Positions 14,909-23,491 of a DNA stretch of 23,491 nucleotides are shown here, one piece after another. Both the position numbers and the translations under genes were made by a program. The notes beneath the pieces were generated by a model. That model searched no databases. It had not been told where the DNA came from and saw nothing but the letters and a program-made list of their open reading frames with translations. Each line of letters starts with the position of its first letter. Position 1 is the stretch's first letter. This DNA is from a virus: IMG/VR virus record IMGVR_UViG_3300025769_000864, positions 1 through 23,491 of that record. One strand, written 5' to 3'.

Positions 14909-15173
14909 TCTGTGACTCCTTATCATGAATGTGAAGCATTATTATAGCATAATGTAATATCTTAAGCAAGTCTTTTCTGTTCTTTCCTGCTTTATTTCCA
15001 TACCTTTTTGCATACTTCATAATGTTTCCCATACAAAACCCTTCGCCATGACCCGAGTCAATGATTACATCAGTAGCTTGATACTTATCTGAAGCGTAGT
15101 GCTCACCATATGTATCATTAATATAGTATTTTAATTCTAAAATTAATTCTCGTTCATTAAATTTATAATCCAT
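14901..15173 (-). CDS. DUF3310-like protein
   Basis: A 90-aa protein. The core HY (25-26), then F-C-M-G-N-I-M-K-Y (46-54), R-Y-G-N-K (57-61) and a D-L-L-K-x-x-H-Y segment (68-75) matches the DUF3310 pattern of phage proteins, whose members include, as I recall, T7 gp1.7, described as a nucleotide kinase. That fits a gene upstream of nrdA in a dNTP supply block, but the activity is not shown here. The frame is open further upstream (to 15245), but the ATG at 15173 has GGAG six bases before it and leaves only an 11-base overlap with the endonuclease I gene. An extended -10 candidate lies near its 3' end. Confidence 0.72.
   Translation of the reverse strand: MDYKFNERELILELKYYINDTYGEHYASDKYQATDVIIDSGHGEGFCMGNIMKYAKRYGNKAGKNRKDLLKILHYAIIMLHIHDKESQNG
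14941..14949 (-). promoter_or_regulatory. Extended -10 candidate ahead of nrdA
   Basis: TGC-TATAAT reads on the minus strand from 14949 to 14941, a perfect -10 with the TG of an extended -10 element. The -35 position at 17-base spacing is TTGCTT (3 of 6). The predicted start near 14934 would leave about 26 bases before the nrdA ATG, including its ribosome site. It lies within codons of the DUF3310-like gene, so chance is possible. Confidence 0.25.
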
Positions 15174-15603
15174 AGTTACTCCATTCCATCGGTAGTGTGT
15201 CTTCACTATACCATCTAAAATTGTTTTTCTCAGCCCATTCAGCATGGGTTCGTTTTGTTCTGTCCTTTCTCATCTTAGCTCCCGGCATAGGTGCATAAGG
15301 TTTTTGAAATAAAAACACTAACTCAGTGTCCTTTGGTAGTGCTGTTCTTATATGTATGTACTTACTATACTCAGGATAGTCCCAAAACCTGCCTTTAGCT
15401 TCAAGTAAAATAGTTTTACCATTAATTACTTTAACAAAGTCTGGTTCATATTTGTGTTTAACAATGTAATCATACAGTTCCCAATGATGTTCCCAATCTT
15501 TAAGAACTGTCTCATGTAGTTTAACTTCCCATAAACTATCGTATCCTTTAGGTACACCTGTTTTTTTAGGTCTCGGTTTACGAGGTTTTCTAAATCCTAC
15601 CAT
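15163..15603 (-). CDS. T7-type endonuclease I (Holliday junction resolvase)
   Basis: A 146-aa nuclease of the Phage_endonuclease_I family, close to the 149 aa of T7 gp3. In T7 this enzyme resolves branched DNA and breaks down host DNA. Visible catalytic set: E26 (SLWEVKLHE, matching T7 E20), D55 (YEPDF), E68 and K70 (LLEAKG). The later WDYPEYSKYIHIR and HAEWAEKNNFRW-x-DTLPMEW segments also match T7 gp3. A basic N-terminus (FRKPRKPRPKK) may bind DNA. The ATG follows the exonuclease stop within a TAATG overlap. Immediately downstream are dNTP supply genes. Confidence 0.92.
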   Translation of the reverse strand: MVGFRKPRKPRPKKTGVPKGYDSLWEVKLHETVLKDWEHHWELYDYIVKHKYEPDFVKVINGKTILLEAKGRFWDYPEYSKYIHIRTALPKDTELVFLFQKPYAPMPGAKMRKDRTKRTHAEWAEKNNFRWYSEDTLPMEWSNYGL

Positions 15604-16403
15604 TATAATACAGACGAGTCATAGTTTTTAACTAACTTCCAGTAAGTTAGCATAGCATTAAACATTCCTAAGTGTTTAGTATGTGATTCTTTATCCCAAA
15701 CAAAAGGAAGGACCAAGCCTGTATCTTTTCTGTCTACAAATATAGATACTCGTTCTACATCATCAAAGCCACAGCCTTGAGCATATGCTGACAACTGCAT
15801 TCCATGTTCATCGAACACCAACTTCGCTGGGTCTTTACCTTTTAGATTATCTTTGGTTTTAAAATCTATAAATATTCCTGACTTAGAATACAAGTCTATC
15901 TTTCCACCATAACCTGCATCAGCACAGAAAGAATCTTCTGCTATCCACTCTTCGTTAGGAAAAGCTTCATCTAAATACTTCTTGATTGCTTTGTAAGGTT
16001 TAGTTTTAGTCTTACCTAAAAAACCTTTCTCAATCATACCATGTATCTTTGTCCCTTGCTGGGCAGCTTGGATACCTACCTGTTTAGAATCTGTTTGACA
16101 TCTGTAATAAAAAGACTCAATTGTTTCATCTTCTCCTTGTTCTAAGGTAAGGAAAGAATTAAGTAATTGTTTTTGTTTCCAAGTCTCTAAAGATGGCTTG
16201 GCTATAATACCCATGATAGTTGTCACAGACGGAACTAAACCTAAAGACTTAGCATCTCTGAGTGTAGTGTTTCTTTCTTTACCATTAGCACCTATGATAG
16301 TATACATAGGCTCACCTTCTTGGGTATACCAGTGTCCTGATTCAGACTTAAACTTATTATAGTTGTCCTTCACCAAGTTGTCAAGTTCTTTTTCTTTAGT
16401 CAT
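15603..16403 (-). CDS. RecB/Cas4-like PD-(D/E)XK exonuclease
   Basis: A 266-aa protein with the order of motifs of RecB-family nucleases: H121 (GTKIHGMIEKG), D170 (GYGGKIDLYSK), D180-F-K182-T (FIDFKTK) and Q203-x-x-x-Y207 (MQLSAYA). This is the place where T7 carries its gp6 5'-3' exonuclease, so it may do the same work in recombination and host DNA breakdown. That is inference from motif and position. I see no iron-sulphur cysteine cluster of the Cas4 type. The start overlaps the end of the HNH-like gene by eight bases. Codons 6-13 contain a perfect sigma70 consensus promoter pointing to the downstream genes. Confidence 0.82.
   Translation of the reverse strand: MTKEKELDNLVKDNYNKFKSESGHWYTQEGEPMYTIIGANGKERNTTLRDAKSLGLVPSVTTIMGIIAKPSLETWKQKQLLNSFLTLEQGEDETIESFYYRCQTDSKQVGIQAAQQGTKIHGMIEKGFLGKTKTKPYKAIKKYLDEAFPNEEWIAEDSFCADAGYGGKIDLYSKSGIFIDFKTKDNLKGKDPAKLVFDEHGMQLSAYAQGCGFDDVERVSIFVDRKDTGLVLPFVWDKESHTKHLGMFNAMLTYWKLVKNYDSSVL
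16356..16384 (-). promoter_or_regulatory. Perfect-consensus sigma70 promoter inside the exonuclease gene
   Basis: On the minus strand TTGACA (16384-16379), 17 bases, TATAAT (16361-16356): both hexamers are exact. The start would be near 16349, inside the exonuclease coding region, so the transcript would serve endonuclease I, the DUF3310-like gene, nrdA and nrdB. At about 35% GC, an exact 12-base match at this spacing is expected only about 0.02 times over both strands of the window (my rough estimate). Confidence 0.6.
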
Positions 16404-16944
16404 TAGTTATTCCTTTTTCTTTGTATAACTTTTTGTAAAAGTTACCTACTGTTAATATTTGTTCAGGTGTTGCTTGGTTTTTAATTGAGTTAGCCATAAG
16501 AGAAACAATAATAATATTATCTTTTACATAACCTTTCTCAGGCACTATCCTATCTAAAGAAGGAGAATTTTGCCAGTTGTTTTTACCTTTACCTTTACCC
16601 CACTTTTGCCCTTCTTTATTTAATTCAAATTTAATTCCTAAGATAGGACACTCCTTTGTTATTATATCTCGTAAATCTTTTACCTTAAGGGTACAAGGAA
16701 CATTATGTTTTTTTGCTCTACCTGCTGCTGCTTTTTGCATATCTTGAAGATGTTGATTATCTCCGACTTGTTTACTTTTCCTAGCATTTGAAACATGTTT
16801 TCTCCTATATTTTTGAACACAAGAATTACATATACGTTGTCCTAAGTTCATATTACACTGGTAACAGTTACCTTTGGGGTTGGTTGTCTTACTACCCGAA
16901 ACCAAAACTACATCACAAACCCTACATGTTTTAGTGTGTTTCAC
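16396..16944 (-). CDS. HNH-like zinc endonuclease, possible intruder gene
   Basis: A 182-aa protein with three CxxC pairs in the first 45 residues (C7/C10, C27/C30, C39/C42) that could bind zinc. A C-terminal module follows: CPILGIKFEL (99-108), then NSPSLDRIVPEKGYVKDNI (126-144) and a MANSIKNQAT segment. The S-L-D-R-I-x-P-x-K-G-Y-x-x-x-N-I-x-x-V-S pattern is one I recognise in phage HNH/endonuclease VII-like proteins, where D and N belong to the nuclease fold. The start is GTG (16944) with a GGAG-like site, overlapping the polymerase stop by 14 bases, and it overlaps the exonuclease by eight. It sits between replication genes, a favoured place for homing-type endonucleases. Its real target is unknown. 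Confidence 0.68.
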   Translation of the reverse strand: MKHTKTCRVCDVVLVSGSKTTNPKGNCYQCNMNLGQRICNSCVQKYRRKHVSNARKSKQVGDNQHLQDMQKAAAGRAKKHNVPCTLKVKDLRDIITKECPILGIKFELNKEGQKWGKGKGKNNWQNSPSLDRIVPEKGYVKDNIIIVSLMANSIKNQATPEQILTVGNFYKKLYKEKGITND

Positions 16945-18676
16945 TCCAATCTCCTCCTATTTTATATTCACCATCAAGAGGACATCTCATATTAAAATGT
17001 TCTCCTGCCTGTTTTAAACTATCCACTGCAAGTTGTCCTACCTTGTTAGCATTACATGCTGGTACTTCAATCTGCCATTCGTCATGAATGTTAGCTACAA
17101 ACTTATGTGGTACAGCAGTTATCTTAAGTCTTGCTTCAAGTATCTCCAATCCTTTCTTCATTACAATAGCACCACCACCCTGTAATAAACTATTTAATGC
17201 AGCGTGTTCGTGTCTTATATAAATCTTACGACCATCTATTCCCATTAAGTATCCTCGCTTTGCAGCTCCTTGTACTTTGTCCTTAAGAGTTTTAAATGTG
17301 GGGAGATTATCGAGAAAGCGTTGCTTAAGTTCTTTACCCTGCTTTCTTGATCCTCCAACCACACTCCCAATCTTTTCATCTCCTGCTCCGTATACGAGGG
17401 CATAGATGAAAGTCTTTGCTGTATCTCGTGATTCAAGTCCTGCAAGTTTTTGATTAGTTGTGTGTATGTCTCCGTTGACCACTTCATGTATGTACTCCTC
17501 ATCGTTCATATAGTGTGCTAACATTCTAAGTTCTAGTCCTGAAGCATCAACTCCAACTAAAACATTCCCGTCTTCTACAGTCCAACAAGCTCTACATTCT
17601 TTACCGAAAGGACTGTAAACAGCCGGTACTTGAGCCACATTAGGGTGGTTATGAGACATACGACCAGTAATAGTTCCGTTAGGAATGACTGAACCATGTA
17701 CTCTACCATCATCTTCTAGTGCATCCAACCATGATTGTATCTGAGCTATACGCTTTTGATATAGTAGGAAGTCTGCGATTAGTTTAGCTTCATGTATGTG
17801 AGTAATCTTTTTAAGAGTACCCTCGTCTACAATCGGCTGACCTGTAGGTGTAAAACGTTTAGGTTTCCAACCTACCTCAACAAGATACTCACCAATCTGT
17901 TTACGACTGCCTAAGTTAAACTCTTTAAGTTCTTGTCGCATAAAGGGCTTGTATTTCTTTTGTGTCATACAAGTGTCATACTCTTCTTTTGTCAATCCTG
18001 ACTTAGACAACTCACCATCTTTCTTAAACTTAGGTACAACTAATTTTACATCAACCATCCTAGGTTTGAATGTGCGTTGTACTTCCTCGACTATTTCATT
18101 CATCTTAGTTTTAAGATCAGCAAGTAATGTAGTAGCCTGTCTTTCATTAAACTTGAACCCGTTGTTTTCTTGATCAGACATTATCCGAGCAACCCTGTGT
18201 TCAAGATCAATTGACTGTTGACTAAAACCTACTTGTTCTTGAAGCAATGCATAGTAAACTAACTCATTTAGTTTAACATCATTGACACAATACTCTAGCA
18301 TCTGTGGTGTATATTCGTCAAAGTCTATGGGTTGTTCTTGCTTTGCAAAGTTTACACGATAACCCCACGTCTTTAAACTGTGTCCGTTTTCTCGGATAGG
18401 TTTAAACAACCTAGACATAACAAGAGTATCTTCAATCTTCTTGTGATATAAATCTACACCAGTTAGTTTCTTAATAACATCTAAATCAAAACGTAAGATG
18501 TTGTGTCCGATTAGTGTACCGGCATTGCTAAGAAACTCTAAACCTTCTTCAAGCTTGTCAGGTGTAAACTCATGTACCTCACCACCAACTTCTTTGGCTA
18601 CAATACAATGTAGCTTTGTTGGTTTAAGACCATCACACTCTATGTCAAATATAATTTTAGAATTCTGTGTTGTCAA
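16931..18676 (-). CDS. Family A DNA polymerase with 3'-5' exonuclease (T7 gp5-like)
   Basis: A 581-aa replicative polymerase (T7 gp5 has 704). Exonuclease: D11 and E13 (FDIECDGL), N59 with D64/D66 (GHNILRFDLD), and D133 (YCVNDVKL). Polymerase: D377 (motif A, VGVDASGLELR); R417, K421 and Y425 (motif B, RDTAKTFIYALVYGAG); H531, D532 and E533 (motif C, NIHDEWQIE). Y425 aligns with E. coli Pol I F762 and T7 Y526. An ATG at 18718 would give 595 aa but overlap primase by 62 bases. I chose TTG at 18676 because GAGGAGG lies six bases upstream and the protein then begins ten residues before DIE, as in T7. The thumb region (about residues 203-255) is shorter than T7's thioredoxin-binding insertion. Confidence 0.96.
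   Translation of the reverse strand: MTTQNSKIIFDIECDGLKPTKLHCIVAKEVGGEVHEFTPDKLEEGLEFLSNAGTLIGHNILRFDLDVIKKLTGVDLYHKKIEDTLVMSRLFKPIRENGHSLKTWGYRVNFAKQEQPIDFDEYTPQMLEYCVNDVKLNELVYYALLQEQVGFSQQSIDLEHRVARIMSDQENNGFKFNERQATTLLADLKTKMNEIVEEVQRTFKPRMVDVKLVVPKFKKDGELSKSGLTKEEYDTCMTQKKYKPFMRQELKEFNLGSRKQIGEYLVEVGWKPKRFTPTGQPIVDEGTLKKITHIHEAKLIADFLLYQKRIAQIQSWLDALEDDGRVHGSVIPNGTITGRMSHNHPNVAQVPAVYSPFGKECRACWTVEDGNVLVGVDASGLELRMLAHYMNDEEYIHEVVNGDIHTTNQKLAGLESRDTAKTFIYALVYGAGDEKIGSVVGGSRKQGKELKQRFLDNLPTFKTLKDKVQGAAKRGYLMGIDGRKIYIRHEHAALNSLLQGGGAIVMKKGLEILEARLKITAVPHKFVANIHDEWQIEVPACNANKVGQLAVDSLKQAGEHFNMRCPLDGEYKIGGDWSETH
18648..18676 (-). promoter_or_regulatory. Sigma70-like promoter candidate at the polymerase start
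   Basis: On the minus strand TTGACA (18676-18671), a 17-base spacer, TATATT (18653-18648, 5 of 6). The TTG of the -35 is also the chosen start codon of the polymerase, so a transcript from here would begin inside the polymerase gene and mainly serve the genes after it. Overlap with codons makes chance more likely than for the other promoters. Confidence 0.3.
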
Positions 18677-20318
18677 ATGTTTCCTCCTCTGATAACTCAA
18701 AGAGCCTACCAGTTTCATTGTTGTAACGTAAGCTACAGGCTAATCCAGTATCACCTGTGTATCTTGATTTAAGTACACGTACTCTTGTAGTGTTAGCTTC
18801 GTCTTGATTCTCTGCTTGTTGATTACGTTCTAGTGCAATTACACAATCAGATAGTTGTGCTATCCCTGCTGAACCTTTGAGGTGTGAAAGAGAGACTTCA
18901 ATCCCTTGCTCATGTCCTTTGTCACCTGATGCTCTACGTAAGTGAGATACAAGTATCATACCCACTCCTGTTTCTTCAACAAGACTACGCAATCTATTCA
19001 TAAGTGAATCAATACCTCTACGTTCATCACCTTCACCCATGACATTGACTAACATATGAAGATGGTCTACAACCACCCACTTACATTCACAGCCTACAAT
19101 AATATATCGTAGCTTAGAGAATACTTCATCAATATCTGTGACCCCAAGATGGGCATGGATAAACACACGACCTTTAGGTATAACTTTATCAAACAGATTA
19201 GTTAGTTGTTCTTCGGTGTATTGATCTCGTCTCTCGTTAAGATACACTCGATCATTAGCTTCAATGGATATAATACCATCAGCAGTTCGTAACCAGTTCT
19301 CTTCAAGAGCTACAATACCTACATTGTCTTCAGTATTTTTAATTAGCCAGTGTTCAAGCTCACGAGTCACACTAGACTTACCTAGTCCTGTGCCACCTGT
19401 AAGAGTTACAAGCTCACCTTTACGCATACCAAATAGTTTCTTGTTCAGACCTTCCCAAGGATAGGCAATGCTTTCCTTAGTCTCTCGATGTAACCATTCA
19501 GACTTTTGAGCAGACAAGTCCATGATACCTGATGGTGTGTAGGTTCTAGCTTCCCACCATGCAGACATGAAAGCTTGAAACTTCTTCTGTCGAAGCATGT
19601 CATTAGCATCCTTACATCCATTAGGTAGGGTGACTATCTTAGCCTTGCCGGGTTTTAATATACGAGCAACCTTTCTAGCTGCTTCTTTACCTGCCTTGTC
19701 ATTATCAAAACATAATACTACGTTCTCAAATGATTCAACAAACTCAATGCTTTCTCGTATATCTTTAACAGCACCTGATGCACCACGCTTTAACGAGACA
19801 CATGCCCACTTTGACTGCATCAATTCATAAGCAGCCATAGCATCACACTCACCTTCAACAATTGTTAGATACTTACCACCAGTATTTCGGAACAACTGTT
19901 CCCCAAATAAACCAGTGCCTTCATACGTACCTGCAAATGCAAAGTTCTTGTTGTCTACAAAACGTGTCTTAGTACCAACCACTTCGTTACCATTGAAGAA
20001 TGGATAGATGTGTTGAGACACTTTGTTATCTGTACTTACTACTCGTCTTACTCCATACTTCTTAGCTGTGTCTTCAGAAATACATCTGTCTGTAAGAGCA
20101 CCAAAGCTACCAGTATATGTGTTAAGAAAAGTATTACTTACTTTAGGTTTAGGATTTGTGTCCATAATTTTACCATCACAAGCATCAATATAATTAGGGA
20201 AGTGTGTCTCACAGCTAAAGCAATGAGCAGACTTGTCCTCGTTCATAGACACAGGGTCAGAGCCACCACATGATGGGCAGGGTAATTTGTGTCGTACGAA
20301 TTTACTTTGTTCTTGCAT
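18657..20318 (-). CDS. DNA primase-helicase (T7 gp4-like)
   Basis: A 553-aa bifunctional fork enzyme. The zinc ribbon has C14/C17 and C33/C36 (CPSC, CFSC). The TOPRIM primase core has E155 (IVEGECDAM) and D205/D207 (CFDNDKAG). The RecA-type helicase has Walker A at 308-316 (GGTGLGKSS), an acidic residue after strand 2 (ALEEN, 338-341), Walker B D418 (VVVDHLHML), a Q/H-type strand (LVSHLRR) and a putative arginine finger in the R511-R518 stretch. The last 12 residues (LSEEETFDNTEF) are acidic and end in Phe, as in T7 gp4, where this tail binds the polymerase. AAAGGAG precedes the ATG by seven bases. The gene follows a stem-loop in a 49-base gap. Confidence 0.96.
   Translation of the reverse strand: MQEQSKFVRHKLPCPSCGGSDPVSMNEDKSAHCFSCETHFPNYIDACDGKIMDTNPKPKVSNTFLNTYTGSFGALTDRCISEDTAKKYGVRRVVSTDNKVSQHIYPFFNGNEVVGTKTRFVDNKNFAFAGTYEGTGLFGEQLFRNTGGKYLTIVEGECDAMAAYELMQSKWACVSLKRGASGAVKDIRESIEFVESFENVVLCFDNDKAGKEAARKVARILKPGKAKIVTLPNGCKDANDMLRQKKFQAFMSAWWEARTYTPSGIMDLSAQKSEWLHRETKESIAYPWEGLNKKLFGMRKGELVTLTGGTGLGKSSVTRELEHWLIKNTEDNVGIVALEENWLRTADGIISIEANDRVYLNERRDQYTEEQLTNLFDKVIPKGRVFIHAHLGVTDIDEVFSKLRYIIVGCECKWVVVDHLHMLVNVMGEGDERRGIDSLMNRLRSLVEETGVGMILVSHLRRASGDKGHEQGIEVSLSHLKGSAGIAQLSDCVIALERNQQAENQDEANTTRVRVLKSRYTGDTGLACSLRYNNETGRLFELSEEETFDNTEF
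18683..18689 (-). promoter_or_regulatory. Strong ribosome site deciding the TTG start of the polymerase
   Basis: GAGGAGG reads on the minus strand, six bases before TTG 18676, within the last codons of the primase-helicase gene. No other in-frame start near the exonuclease motif has a comparable site. Confidence 0.8.
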
Positions 20319-20338
20319 TCTATCTCCTTTAGAAAAGT

Positions 20339-20360
20339 GGCTAGGCTTTTACACCTAGCC
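20339..20360 (-). terminator. Stem-loop between the acidic protein and primase-helicase genes
   Basis: GGCTAGG (20339-20345) and CCTAGCC (20354-20360) form a perfect 7-bp stem with an 8-base loop, in one of the few real gaps of the minus-strand arm. On the minus strand it is followed by ACTTTTC, a weak T run, then the primase ribosome site. It may be a partial terminator or an RNA processing/stability element that sets SSB output above primase output. Confidence 0.5.
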
Positions 20361-20367
20361 GAGTTGT

Positions 20368-20610
20368 TTATTTTGAAGATTCTTCGTCAGTTTCTTCGGC
20401 TGGTTCGACTATAGCTTCGTCTCTACCCTTAAGCAACTCTTCTAAGTTAGCTCTGTGGGTACGACTAGCAAAGTCTAAGGCTTCAATGACAACCTGTAGG
20501 TTACCAACCTTCTGTACAATAACTGTTGCTTCTTGCTTCACTGCATCATCAGTAATGTTATTGACATCAAAGTTGGTAGTACCATCATCATTGTTGATAG
20601 TAATAATCAT
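20368..20610 (-). CDS. Small acidic protein after SSB
   Basis: An 80-aa protein of unknown family. The N-terminal strand-like part (MIITINNDDGTTNFDVNNI) is followed by helices (VVIEALDFASRTHRANLEELLKG) and an acidic tail (EPAEETDEESSK). The start overlaps the SSB stop as TAATG, so the two are probably co-translated. A stem-loop follows its stop. It may be an accessory of SSB, judged only by coupling. Confidence 0.7.
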   Translation of the reverse strand: MIITINNDDGTTNFDVNNITDDAVKQEATVIVQKVGNLQVVIEALDFASRTHRANLEELLKGRDEAIVEPAEETDEESSK

Positions 20611-21026
20611 TAGAATTCTTCTCCATCGGATAAGAACTCATCACCATCACCATTCTTGTAAGGCACAAGATCGGTAATCATTACTGCCTGTAAATCTAAT
20701 CCTGTGTAAGGACCAAACTTACCTTCGCCACTGTATTCGTTGTACTGGACTTTAATTTTTGATCCATTACCAACAGCAGTTGTGACTTCCTGCTTCTCAG
20801 CATTCATCAAACGAGGTGCAGGTCTAACCATTCCGTTAGGACCATTTACTTTACGTTTGATTATAACAGCAGGACCTTCATCCATCTGTTTTACTTTGTG
20901 TCCACGAGATGCAAACTCGTTTGCTGTCTCATCATCAACCACTAAGTTGACTGTGTACACGGGTTCAAATGTCGTATTGGGTGTCGTTATACTAGCCCAG
21001 TACGCTGTTCCTTCTAATATTGCCAT
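20610..21026 (-). CDS. Single-stranded DNA-binding protein (T7 gp2.5-like)
   Basis: A 138-aa protein fitting the gp2.5-like OB-fold group of podoviruses. It has an N-terminal GTAYWASITTPNT segment, VYTVNLVVDDETANEF (residues 23-38), a basic stretch (IIKRKVNGPNG, 55-65), and IKVQYNEYSGEGKFGPYTGLDLQAVMI (91-117), which resembles the strand that closes the fold in this family. The C-terminus (DGDEFLSDGEEF) is acidic and ends in Phe, the hallmark of T7 gp2.5, where it contacts polymerase and helicase. AAAGGAGG precedes the ATG. It is the first well-sized gene after the strongest promoter of the arm. Confidence 0.88.
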   Translation of the reverse strand: MAILEGTAYWASITTPNTTFEPVYTVNLVVDDETANEFASRGHKVKQMDEGPAVIIKRKVNGPNGMVRPAPRLMNAEKQEVTTAVGNGSKIKVQYNEYSGEGKFGPYTGLDLQAVMITDLVPYKNGDGDEFLSDGEEF

Positions 21027-21040
21027 ATGCGTTTCCTCCT

Positions 21041-21160
21041 TTATAGCGTTGTTGTGAAGTTGGAAGGGTTGTGAGTAGCTACCCTAGAAGCCACAGCATT
21101 AGCTGCACCAAACCATCTGTTCAATTGGAGATAGAGGGCTTGATATGTTTGGTTACTCAT
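21041..21160 (-). CDS. 39-codon ORF right after the main promoter (leader peptide or leader RNA)
   Basis: ATG 21160 opens a 39-codon frame to TAA at 21041, ending just before the SSB ribosome site. The product begins MSNQTYQALYLQLNRWFGAA and ends in a Thr-rich tail (NFTTTL). The predicted transcription start is only about 3-6 bases before the ATG and there is no ribosome site, so if translated it would be nearly leaderless. It could equally be the untranslated leader of the SSB transcript. Confidence 0.4.
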   Translation of the reverse strand: MSNQTYQALYLQLNRWFGAANAVASRVATHNPSNFTTTL

Positions 21161-21170
21161 TGTGATACCA

Positions 21171-21199
21171 AGTATAACAGAATCAGTCTTGAATGTCAA
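21171..21199 (-). promoter_or_regulatory. Strong sigma70 promoter with extended -10 ahead of SSB and the replication genes
   Basis: On the minus strand TTGACA (21199-21194), 17 bases, TATACT (21176-21171, 5 of 6), with TGT directly before the -10 (extended -10). It overlaps the last codons of the 73-aa gene and lies in a gap of about 155 bases before SSB. The predicted start is about 21164. It would drive the whole replication block. Confidence 0.75.
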
Positions 21200-21404
21200 G
21201 CAATATTTCTTCCATACTTATCACAGGGTTTTCAAATAAAGTAACTAAGAAATTTTCTCCATCTTTTTTTACTTCATAAGCTGCTTTACTTTCATAAAAT
21301 TCTTGATAGTTATCTGCTACATAAGCTTCAAACCTTCTGAGTTCATCTCTGTCAAAGATAGCTGTCTCTCCTTCAGCCATCATCCTTTCGTATATGTAGT
21401 TCAT
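21183..21404 (-). CDS. 73-aa protein, unknown function
   Basis: An acidic, helical 73-aa protein (MNYIYERMMAEGETAIFDRDELRRFEAYV, then a strand-like YEVKKDGENFLVTLFENP). An upstream in-frame ATG (21428) would add eight residues. The ATG at 21404 is preferred because AGGAGG lies five bases before it and it forms an ATGA overlap with the preceding gene. Its final codons hold the -35 of the main promoter. No family is recognised. Confidence 0.68.
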   Translation of the reverse strand: MNYIYERMMAEGETAIFDRDELRRFEAYVADNYQEFYESKAAYEVKKDGENFLVTLFENPVISMEEILLDIQD

Positions 21405-21898
21405 GCAACCTCCTGTGTTGTCCACCATACAGGCTTAGCTCTATTGCGTTCCCATTTGGCATAGTGTTTTTCGTTAATGCAGTAATCACGATAAGCAATG
21501 ATAGCATCCTCATTCTTATACTCCTCAGGCATAGCCTGTGCTAGTGGTGTTAGACTTGTATGTGTAATGTTGTCAGGCATCTTGCTCAATGGTTCTTCTA
21601 ATTTGACAACACTTGCATGTTTCCTACCGTATCTATACTCATACTCCATACCTAATGCTAGGAAGTGTTTGTATAACCATGAGTAGTTAGAGCTAGATTC
21701 TCTTGCCCATATAGTACATGGATGATTCCAGTAGGCACGTTTGTAAAGTCCATTGGCATCTGCGTACTCATCACCATCTAGTTCTCGGTGTGCAGTACAT
21801 AACATTTGTGCTGTTTCTAGTGGCATCTTGACTAACATCTTATCAGGCTGTGCTTCTGCTGATACAGTTGGACATTCATCAAAATAAAATATGTTCAT
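21401..21898 (-). CDS. Conserved marine-phage protein, 165 aa
   Basis: A 165-aa protein with MNIFYFDECP, VKMPLETAQMLCTAHRELDG (residues 23-42), NHPCTIWARESSSNYSWLYKHF (58-79), EYRYGRKHAS (86-95) and a C-terminal AMPEEYK-x6-AYRDYC-x4-HYAKWERNRAKPVWW. I recognise this layout (VKM.LETAQ.L.TAHR and HP..IW.RES..NY.WLY) from a family widespread in marine phages, usually left without a function. The spacing of E, W and the C-terminal W recalls pyrimidine-dimer glycosylases (Pyr_excise), but that is speculative. The start overlaps the stop of the 64-aa gene by one base. Confidence 0.7.
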   Translation of the reverse strand: MNIFYFDECPTVSAEAQPDKMLVKMPLETAQMLCTAHRELDGDEYADANGLYKRAYWNHPCTIWARESSSNYSWLYKHFLALGMEYEYRYGRKHASVVKLEEPLSKMPDNITHTSLTPLAQAMPEEYKNEDAIIAYRDYCINEKHYAKWERNRAKPVWWTTQEVA

Positions 21899-22092
21899 TA
21901 AGCTTCTCCAATTAAAACAACTTCACCATGTAGTTCGTATCCACTTTGTCCTGTGTTAGCTACATCAATTCTATCTATCCAATAATTTTCTAAATTGTAA
22001 TCAGAGTTGTTAGGATTGTTTTCTAACACACGAACATTTAAAGTTTTGTCAGTGATAGTGTTTAGATTATCTATTAAATCTTGTACTGTCAT
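21898..22092 (-). CDS. 64-aa small alpha/beta protein
   Basis: A 64-aa protein starting MTVQDLIDNLNTITDKTLNVRVLENN and ending HGEVVLIGEA. This fits a common small phage pattern: an N-terminal helix 'tv.dLi..L', then a V-x-V strand, then a final strand. No function is known for that group. It overlaps its neighbours at both ends by one to four bases (ATGA with the gene before it), consistent with a coupled chain. Confidence 0.7.
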   Translation of the reverse strand: MTVQDLIDNLNTITDKTLNVRVLENNPNNSDYNLENYWIDRIDVANTGQSGYELHGEVVLIGEA

Positions 22093-22280
22093 TCACCACC
22101 TTCAATTTCAAATGCTTCATTAAGATGATACAGTAAGTCTGCTATGGCATGTACCTCTTGGATATCTATACCACCATACTCAAACAAACTATTCACACCT
22201 CGTTTAGATTTACGATAGTTCTTTTTAATCCATTCCAAATGTCTTGCTGGAATTTTAATTGTTATTTTTTTCTCGTTCAT
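22089..22280 (-). CDS. 63-aa small protein, possibly DNA-binding
   Basis: A 63-aa protein with a basic N-terminal half (MNEKKITIKIPARHLEWIKKNYRKSKR) and a helical acidic C-terminal half (EVHAIADLLYHLNEAFEIEGGE). A strand followed by two helices would suit a ribbon-helix-helix type protein, but the sequence alone does not prove it. The start overlaps the stop of the 49-aa gene (ATGA). Confidence 0.6.
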   Translation of the reverse strand: MNEKKITIKIPARHLEWIKKNYRKSKRGVNSLFEYGGIDIQEVHAIADLLYHLNEAFEIEGGE

Positions 22281-22426
22281 TTACCTTGCCCTCGATATTT
22301 TTTAAAGTTGCTTTTCTTGTTCTTGTTCATGGTAGAGAAAGCAACATTACCTCTACCTTGACTTGTCTTCTTACCTCTGCCTTGTGTGGCAGATACATGA
22401 GCAGTTTTATTCCACGTCTTCGCCAT
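22277..22426 (-). CDS. 49-aa basic Gly/Arg/Lys-rich protein
   Basis: Forty-nine codons from ATG 22426 (GAGGAG nine bases upstream) to TGA in an ATGA overlap. The product is strongly basic with a thrice-repeated QGRG/RGQG element (TQGRGKK, SQGRGN, YRGQGK) and MNKNKKSNFKKYRGQGK at the end. A similar KYRGQG tail occurs in small cyanophage proteins as I recall. Composition suggests nucleic acid binding. Confidence 0.7.
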   Translation of the reverse strand: MAKTWNKTAHVSATQGRGKKTSQGRGNVAFSTMNKNKKSNFKKYRGQGK

Positions 22427-22616
22427 AATACTCCTCTATATTTTTTTTACGCTTATCGTTAAACTCTGTAACTCTTCTACCCGAAACATAATCAGTTGTA
22501 CTCTTTGTCCATTTACCGTCATTGATTCTTATGTCAATAGATTTTACTTGATTGGCTTCAGCTTCTTTTTTTAATATTTCTTTCTGCTGTTCAACAGCTT
22601 CATAAAACTCAGTCAT
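22407..22616 (-). CDS. 69-aa charged helical protein
   Basis: A 69-aa protein with a Glu/Lys-rich N-terminal helix (MTEFYEAVEQQKEILKKEAEAN), a strand segment (SIDIRINDGKWT) and a charged end (DKRKKNIEEYYGEDVE). GGGAGA lies about six bases before the ATG. It overlaps the preceding gene by eight bases and the next by 20. No family is recognised. Confidence 0.65.
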   Translation of the reverse strand: MTEFYEAVEQQKEILKKEAEANQVKSIDIRINDGKWTKSTTDYVSGRRVTEFNDKRKKNIEEYYGEDVE

Positions 22617-22815
22617 TGTTTATCTCCCTCTCTTTTTTAAGTTCCATTAACTCATCCCATTTGTAAAACTTCTTAGTTTCTGCATCCCAAAAGTTTCCAC
22701 GCTGTACTCTTGGTGGTATATGTGGTTCTATCTTTTCCTCATCTACCAAGTACATGTACAAAACTGTTGTTGTTAATAATGTAACAACAGCCACTACTAT
22801 TAATATAAATTCCAT
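22609..22815 (-). CDS. 68-aa single-TM membrane protein
   Basis: The N-terminus is one clear membrane segment (MEFILIVVAVVTLLTTTVLYMYL, residues 1-23) followed by a charged cytoplasmic-type tail (GNFWDAETKKFYKWDELMELKKE). AGGAG is ten bases before the ATG. It lies in the small early-type cluster and not in the lysis cassette, so it more likely acts at the host membrane during takeover or exclusion. That is speculation. No family is recognised. Confidence 0.68.
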   Translation of the reverse strand: MEFILIVVAVVTLLTTTVLYMYLVDEEKIEPHIPPRVQRGNFWDAETKKFYKWDELMELKKEREINND

Positions 22816-22816
22816 T

Positions 22817-23062
22817 TTAATTTTCTCCTACCTTAAAAAACATCTCAATGTTTTTAGGTAATTTATTTCTTAAATTTCTTAGTTCGTTAATGTCTTCATC
22901 AAACTCCCAAGTCTCTTGGGTATTTACATTACCTATGTTAAAAAGTTTTTGAACTGAATTCATTTTGACAATGTTATCTATTGCACCCTCAACAGTTCTT
23001 GAAAATGTTTTAAGTGTTGTTCGTTCATTGTCTAGTTCGACATCCATGATGTACTCATCCAT
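22817..23062 (-). CDS. 81-aa acidic protein, unknown
   Basis: An 81-aa protein: MDEYIMDVELDNERTTLKTFSRTVEGAIDNIVKMNSVQK, then strand-like FNIGNVNTQETWEFDED and a Leu/Arg helix (INELRNLRNKLPKNIEMFFKV). The R-T-V-E-x-A-I-D-N-I element looks like a small domain shared by some phage proteins, function unknown. AGGAG lies seven bases before the ATG, and the start overlaps the previous stop as TAATG. Confidence 0.67.
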   Translation of the reverse strand: MDEYIMDVELDNERTTLKTFSRTVEGAIDNIVKMNSVQKLFNIGNVNTQETWEFDEDINELRNLRNKLPKNIEMFFKVGEN

Positions 23063-23352
23063 TAAAATCTCCTATCTAAATATTTATGTTGTTCTTGTTT
23101 ATTTACTTCTTCAAGTTCTTTGTATGTTGTAATGTGTGGATTAGATTTTAAGACTTTCATAATCCACTTGTCAGACATAAAAGATAAATGCATTTGACGA
23201 TTGCCAAAGGCATGAGTTTGATCGGGCATTAGTTCCTCAACATTATCCACAGTAATTACATTGCCTTGGTCTTCGGGCAATATAGATTGAAGCCACTCAA
23301 CCTGTAAAGGTTTGATAAGCTTACGAAGTTTCTTTAATTGTTTACTGTTCAT
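23062..23352 (-). CDS. 96-aa basic protein, unknown
   Basis: A 96-aa protein with a Lys/Leu-rich N-terminal helix (MNSKQLKKLRKLIKPLQVEWLQSIL), a middle with DQTHAFGNRQMHLSFMSDKWIMKVL, and a basic end (NKQEQHKYLDRRF). It starts in an ATGA overlap with the 42-aa gene before it. No family is recognised. Confidence 0.67.
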   Translation of the reverse strand: MNSKQLKKLRKLIKPLQVEWLQSILPEDQGNVITVDNVEELMPDQTHAFGNRQMHLSFMSDKWIMKVLKSNPHITTYKELEEVNKQEQHKYLDRRF

Positions 23353-23477
23353 GATAAAGCTATAAACTCCATGTATGGTTCTTCTCTGTGTCCTTCGGGT
23401 AAAAACTCTACCCTGTCAACAACTTCTTGTAAGTCATATGTTGTTGCAGTTGTTTCGCCTTCATCATCATGACCCAT
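23349..23477 (-). CDS. 42-aa small acidic protein
   Basis: Forty-two codons from ATG 23477 (AAAGGA eight bases upstream) to TGA at 23349 in an ATGA overlap. The product is acidic: MGHDDEGETTATTYDLQEVV, then EFLPEGHREEPYMEFIALS. Spacing and ribosome site support a real gene. It is the first complete gene of the minus-strand arm in the window. Confidence 0.62.
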   Translation of the reverse strand: MGHDDEGETTATTYDLQEVVDRVEFLPEGHREEPYMEFIALS

Positions 23478-23491
23478 AATCAATCCTTTAC

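Follow-up and report, generated by a model that had tools for sequence, protein, structure and literature searches.

Conserved folded leaders that are tied to one gene are usually the seat of autogenous control, and the ribosomal-protein genes represent a familiar instance, in which a conserved folded leader stands before one gene only and the RNA mimics the structured rRNA site of the protein. We know of no structured RNA target for a single-stranded-DNA-binding protein (SSB). Among phage SSBs, a plan of pseudoknot, less structured stretch and ribosome site is described for T4 gene 32, and operators of the T4 type are noted to diverge fast in sequence (PMC535899, the part of that paper drawn on here). 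The leader analysed in this study likewise combines an H-type pseudoknot, a G-poor spacer of 30-51 nt and a ribosome site, and lies before the ssb gene of a marine phage.

The window, by which we mean the whole stretch of DNA analysed, is a virus record of 23,491 bases with its replication genes on the minus strand; besides ssb these are a primase-helicase (PHROG 239), a DNA polymerase (PHROG 17) and two ribonucleotide reductase subunits. By DNA polymerase the nearest isolates are the Pelagibacter phages HTVC115P, HTVC103P and HTVC104P (~50% identity), whose SSBs are 45-52% identical to that of the window, and since the nearest isolates are Pelagibacter phages the host is probably SAR11-like. 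The window SSB matches PHROG 112 (gp2.5-like, E 7.4e-9) and, by profile, T7 gp2.5 (PDB 1je5, E 0.0019), and the best fold match of its predicted structure (mean pLDDT 85.2) is again T7 gp2.5 (1je5, E 5.5e-7). With a gp2.5 profile and an OB-type fold in the predicted model, the protein is a T7 gp2.5-like SSB and no homologue of gp32, PHROG 112 and 1je5 being what the profile and fold comparisons returned. A gene at 21401-21898 (minus strand) with a match to pyrimidine dimer glycosylase (Pyr_excise) lies just upstream of the ssb leader region. The 80-aa frame that follows ssb is separated from the primase-helicase gene by a strong inverted repeat at 20338-20361 (GGCTAGG/CCTAGCC). It resembles a terminator on either strand and might determine how much ssb is expressed relative to helicase.

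An earlier note on this DNA had described a 39-codon frame without a ribosome site that ends exactly before the ribosome site of ssb, and had left open whether a leaderless peptide or a structured leader is involved. The description of the frame is accurate: the predicted 4-5 nt before ATG 21160 leave no room for a ribosome site, and the stop at 21043-21041 directly abuts the ssb ribosome site AGGAGG at 21040-21035. The longer range 21041-21199 is the same frame read from a TTG inside the -35 box. Judging by covariation among relatives, the bases of the frame are a conserved RNA with a four-way junction and a pseudoknot. P1-P4 meet in the junction without linker bases, and P5, formed between the loop of P4 and the 3' tail, produces an H-type pseudoknot. 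The features are as follows.

21171-21199, minus strand: sigma-70-type promoter, TTGACA, 17 nt, TATACT, with extended -10 (TGT); from consensus and its conserved place in relatives.
21041-21160, minus strand: 39-codon open frame, ATG 21160 to stop 21043-21041; judged to be no gene.
21155-21158, minus strand: P1 5' strand GAGU, partner 21076-21073; from covariation.
21147-21153, minus strand: P2 5' strand ACCAAAC, partner 21113-21107 (GUUUGGU); from covariation.
21126-21139, minus strand: P2 loop GCCCUCUAUCUCCA, nearly invariant; from the alignment.
21107-21113, minus strand: P2 3' strand GUUUGGU; from covariation.
21094-21105, minus strand: P3 hairpin, CAG/CUG here and UGG/CCA, CAA/UUG and others in relatives; from covariation.
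21089-21092, minus strand: P4 5' strand GGCU, partner AGCU at 21080-21077; from covariation.
21081-21086, minus strand: P5 5' strand UAGGGU, within the loop of P4, partner 21069-21064 (pseudoknot); from covariation.
21077-21080, minus strand: P4 3' strand AGCU; from covariation.
21073-21076, minus strand: P1 3' strand ACUC; from covariation.
21064-21069, minus strand: P5 3' strand ACCCUU in the 3' tail, closing the pseudoknot; from covariation.
21041-21063, minus strand: unstructured G-poor spacer from the pseudoknot to the ribosome site; from composition.
21035-21040, minus strand: ssb Shine-Dalgarno sequence AGGAGG; from the sequence.
20610-21026, minus strand: ssb, 138 aa, T7-gp2.5-like single-stranded-DNA-binding protein, ATG 21026.

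Relatives comprised the 80 best of 240 confirmed loci fetched with the window SSB, together with loci from DNA-pattern searches and from two distant-SSB searches; the first DNA pattern was too narrow (16 found) and was repeated in wider form, and all counts from the wider pattern scans are lower bounds. The upstream stretches of these relatives consist of conserved blocks with indels between them. An alignment model built from 43 representatives with P2, P3 and P5 was used to align 66 matches, one of these rows being a weak, AT-rich second model hit in locus L207 (22.9 bits) that was left out later; two low-scoring hits in L253 were ignored, and the second hit in the window (9.2 bits) is noise. 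On the 66 rows RNAalifold returned P1, P2, P3 and P4 unaided as a linker-free four-way junction, plus one minor pair.

In a larger alignment of 85 rows, 82 of them distinct, standard pairs occupy 96.5% of the 1974 pair cells of the distinct copies, and 18 of the 25 pairs have changed on both sides, a count that none of 500 shuffles reached (shuffled mean 11.1). Sliding the partners by 1-3 columns lowers pairing to 19-46%. Because the kinship of sequences inflates shuffle tests of this kind, the slid controls and P4 count for more, and P4 pairs in 98-100% of cells though it was no part of the alignment model. An alignment-free count over 50 distinct cores, including one chance hit in a genome, gave 241/250 paired cells for P4 and 291/300 for P5, and P2 scored a mean of 16.1 with its own partner as compared to 14.0 with the partners of other copies (maximum 14.8 in 200 re-deals). 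Single copies are instructive as well: L057 has a paired insertion in P5, and L391 and L412 carry GACAGU/ACUGUC in place of GAGAGU/ACUCUC, a change of G-C to C-G in P5. The weak spots are P2 pair 5, which fails in 32 of the 79 copies with letters there, the P1 bases GAG/CUC, which are invariant within the clade-1 set, the fourth P1 pair, broken in one copy (L017, C-A), and L132, L238 and L239, which align poorly in P2 and P3.

With compensatory changes in five helices and an exclusive association with ssb, the structured leader is thus strongly supported, and of the two types of conservation that the earlier note had proposed to compare in relatives, the stem type was found and the codon type was absent. 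As to RNA folding, also proposed there, the alignment-based fold finds P1-P4. Folding the window as a single sequence is uninformative, its stability being no greater than that of its shuffles (z -0.38), and when P5 is left out the native fold falls short of the computed optimum in score.

The P2 loop GCCCUCUAUCUCCA is C/U-rich and in clade 1 hardly changes over its 14 nt, partly by construction as the pattern scans required it. The loop is also present in loci fetched by SSB alone, minus two bases in L065 and L066 and plus one in L069. The spacer spans 30-51 nt from the pseudoknot to the AUG and has 3.9% G before the ribosome site. G-poverty as a hallmark of an SSB operator is weakened by the RNA-less ssb leaders, which are G-poor too (6% G over the corresponding part of 15 leaders). 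UUAAA, the T4 motif, occurs in 5/57 spacers and UUAA in 50/57, and U-runs after P5 are not conserved in clade 1.

When the model was run on 80 SSB loci of greater distance, 36 matches at E <=1 resulted, the weakest being noise; L242-L272 carry a diverged version of the RNA. This second clade retains P1, P2, P3 and P5, with 94.3% of 522 cells paired and double changes in 12 of the 31 pairs; its further pair types show no excess over shuffles (305/500). P1 here has six pairs, GAGUCA with UGGCUC or UGACUC, or GAGCCA with UGGCUC, and the fourth of these is C-G, U-G or U-A in 6, 6 and 5 of 17 distinct copies. The P2 loop reads GCCCUCUAUCUCCA, GCCCUCUAAACUCCA, GCCCUCAAUCUCCA or GCCCUUUAUUAUCUCCA. 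In L242-L271 there is an extra covarying hairpin (AACUC/GAGUU, AACCC/GGGUU, AACUU/AAGUU) beside the P5 3' strand, ~60-110 nt before ssb, followed by U4-U6 in 12 of 19 leaders; this terminator-like arrangement suggests transcription control there. A pattern scanner found no terminator in L256 and L244, probably owing to an internal bulge, and the hairpin is seen by folding. Minimum-energy folds of L256, L254 and L262 show a long competing helix between CUCCAUC, on the 3' side of the P2 loop, and GAUGGGG in the P4 loop, possibly a second state of the predicted RNA.

The association with ssb is exclusive. Among the matches listed there are at least 104 distinct pattern copies; a frame of >=100 residues can be read behind 102 of them, and in all 102 it is SSB; the remaining two are L112, where the contig ends, and one chance genome hit. 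A second scan listed at least 48 distinct matches, of which 39 are the RNA, all before ssb, and 9 are chance. Each of ten longer records contains exactly one copy. When 84,980 bacterial and archaeal species genomes were scanned with the exact pattern, one of the 25 matches was real; this one, too, stands before ssb, on a contig assigned to the MAG Candidatus Pelagibacter MED605 that is likely phage DNA. Three leaders used as queries against 50,697 phage records returned short chance matches only.

Presence or absence of the RNA can be explained by 3 changes on a 56-row SSB tree as compared to a shuffled mean of 16.4, which is compatible with one gain and two losses. The SSB lineages without the RNA include those of the HTVC115P-type phages and of the close relatives L055, L068, L273 and L274. 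In the isolate HTVC115P (L209) itself, which lacks the RNA, a different inverted repeat, GAGTAGT ... ACTACTC, lies at ~1372-1412 in a 400-nt gap before ssb. Residue 66 of the window SSB is Met in 35/36 RNA-bearing SSBs and Arg in 4 tested near relatives without the RNA. The RNA-bearing phages are a widespread, uncultured marine group related to Pelagibacter phages. Searches of Rfam 15 gave no match for the window at the gathering threshold, for the window leader at E<=5 or for five loci at E<=5, and for six loci at E<=2 they gave five weak matches, none of which lies in a leader. The open-access literature covered, mostly as listings and opening lines of abstracts, does not mention the RNA, which to that extent is previously undescribed.

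The RNA stands at the 5' end of its predicted transcript, behind a conserved promoter. The promoter that the earlier note had recognised before ATG 21160 was borne out as TTGACA-17-TGTTATACT on the minus strand at 21199-21171, with the -35 box TTGACA at 21199-21194, a 17-nt spacer and TATACT at 21176-21171 preceded by TGT (11/12 consensus matches). As inferred from this promoter the transcript should start ~4 nt before ATG 21160, in agreement with the 3-6 bases proposed before. Promoter-like sites as such are no more frequent in 15000-23491 than expected (25 found, 27.9 in shuffles), and three sites there, this promoter among them, have 11-12 consensus matches. The strength of the assignment comes from relatives: among 92 distinct upstream stretches a promoter of >=9/12 is present in 80 as compared to 16% of shuffled stretches, and one of >=10/12 in 74 as compared to 2%. 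In those 80 the -10 end mostly lies 10-19 nt before P1 of the RNA; the other 12/92 score below 9/12, and in L065 and L066 the RNA follows closely behind an upstream frame. Two further near-perfect promoters, at 16384-16356 (minus strand, 12/12) and 18676-18648 (minus strand, 11/12), fall within the first codons of the genes 15603-16403 and 16931-18718 (DNA polymerase), and are possibly internal promoters or signs of wrong gene starts.

As a reading frame the same bases are not maintained. An ATG or TTG homologous to ATG 21160 is present in 62/102 distinct copies among the matches listed and absent from the other 40; in these 102 copies the distance to the ssb start takes all three phases (53/32/17) and the translations of the frame are unrelated. 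For a test of coding constraint, 18 distinct close copies could be aligned to the window frame without indels. Variable sites at codon positions 1/2/3 number 11/9/8 and the changes are 5 silent and 25 replacement, a silent fraction of 0.17 as compared to 0.23 expected without selection. In ssb of the same 18 loci the codon positions give 28/16/83, with 91 silent and 61 replacement changes. This set supersedes a count of 4 silent and 138 replacement changes over 27 frames, which mixed unrelated 39-codon frames. The frame is free of stops in 18/18 of the close indel-free copies, which says little at such closeness, and no Pfam or PHROG match for it was found.

We consider it highly probable that the roughly 100 bases from the promoter to ssb form a structured cis-regulatory leader. 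Because this is a conserved folded leader tied to one gene, it very probably controls the amount of SSB made, and translation would most likely be the controlled step. We propose the following scenario. Once the replication intermediates are covered, free SSB would accumulate and might bind the folded leader, probably at the pyrimidine-rich loop and the pseudoknot; the bound SSB might then spread into the G-poor single-stranded spacer and cover AGGAGG and the AUG, so that ssb translation would be shut off by its own product, in the manner of the T4 gene 32 operator. That SSB is the ligand is for us an even bet. To the whole chain, from a structured leader through cis control of ssb near the ribosome site to SSB as the trigger, we assign a probability of about 0.5.

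Alternatively, the leader might belong to a new class of metabolite or nucleotide riboswitches, through which the ssb-primase-polymerase-RNR operon would respond to the condition of the infected cell, with the loop and junction forming the ligand pocket; we regard this as possible, if on balance unlikely. The fold is aptamer-like, a linker-free four-way junction and a pseudoknot with nearly invariant unpaired bases, and the 3' parts vary, the terminator-like hairpin next to P5 in 12/19 clade-2 copies included. Competing folds also speak for such a switch: imposing the junction raises the mean unpaired value of the ribosome site from 0.57 to 0.78, with a rise of >0.2 in 27/59 and a fall in none, an opening that is partly built in by the imposed constraint. 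Glutamine riboswitches have, moreover, been reported in phages of streamlined marine bacteria (PMC9004378, in the part drawn on here). However, among the matches listed the RNA lies upstream of ssb only and never of a metabolic or transport gene, and the one real match in the cellular genomes scanned, that on the Pelagibacter MAG contig, is before ssb as well. A narrower version, which we hold to be less likely again, would be a phage-only riboswitch class, absent from the scanned cellular genomes, in which the nearly invariant CCCUCUAUCUCC loop and the junction recognise a ligand of nucleotide type and thereby control the entire replication operon (ssb, primase-helicase, polymerase, ribonucleotide reductase), with a translational output in one clade and a transcriptional output in the other.

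The folded 5' end might also, without sensing anything, protect the ssb mRNA from decay or recruit a host factor. The options include protection of the 5' end, Rho, or modification of RNA polymerase as in the put RNAs of HK022. The predicted start of the transcript a few nt before P1 in most relatives fits this, as do the C/U-rich loop and the G-poor spacer. Against it, the copies noted above have no promoter directly in front, and a plain protector needs neither an invariant 14-nt loop nor confinement to ssb; this explanation seems to us rather improbable.

A very doubtful candidate is the P2 loop as an anti-Shine-Dalgarno element that blocks the ribosome site of ssb as long as the junction is unfolded. 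The loop can indeed pair with that site (mean -9.5 kcal/mol over 45 leaders, nine pairs in L065 and L066), but it pairs at least equally well with the ribosome sites that precede other genes of the same contigs (mean -10.9 over 205), so the pairing is not tuned to ssb. Pairing of the loop with a host RNA was sought in a single partial host-like MAG (reached via L234), where the sole exact complement was the phage leader itself and complements with two mismatches were at background. Finally, a 39-residue leaderless peptide at the head of the operon, which the frame kept open in the close copies and an ATG so near the predicted transcript start might recommend, is ruled out as a gene by the frameshifting indels between relatives, which the earlier note had named as refuting it, the lost start codons, the out-of-frame leader lengths and the lack of coding constraint, and has next to no credibility left. 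As this case shows, what looks like a small open frame may be the imprint of an RNA.

Of known systems, the leaders of ribosomal-protein genes share with this one a conserved fold before one gene; mimicry of an rRNA site is particular to them. The STAXI motif likewise involves an RNA pseudoknot and occurs close to the genes of SSB and of other proteins that handle DNA, but consists of tandem pseudoknot repeats near various genes (PMC2864571, in part), and the leader has no Rfam match. The glutamine (glnA) riboswitches are also structured RNAs in phages of streamlined marine bacteria, but their context is tmRNA there and ssb here (PMC9004378, in part); the leader matches no Rfam family in this case either. 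This study adds a structured RNA class without an Rfam 15 match in widespread uncultured marine phages.

The gene 32 operator of T4 and RB69, as set out in the part of PMC535899 drawn on, is alike in its place in the 5' leader of an SSB mRNA and in its order of a pseudoknot, then tens of A/U-rich nt, with the ribosome site in a less structured stretch. It is unlike in that the SSB here is T7-gp2.5-like, the UUAAA repeats are mostly missing, the pseudoknot lies within a four-way junction with a nearly invariant loop, and repression is here a proposal. The strict parallel to T4 is weakened because the SSB is unrelated, UUAAA is rare, the RNA-less leaders are G-poor and the loop is constant; a nearly unchanging 14-nt loop, unlike T4-type operators, would suit a dedicated ligand, which counts against the reading as an SSB operator. 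The same part of PMC535899 leaves open RNA-mediated translational regulation by SSBs beyond T4-like and M13-like phages, and a leader with a covarying pseudoknot that stands before a gp2.5-like ssb and no other gene offers the means to test this directly in a second SSB family, unrelated to the first.
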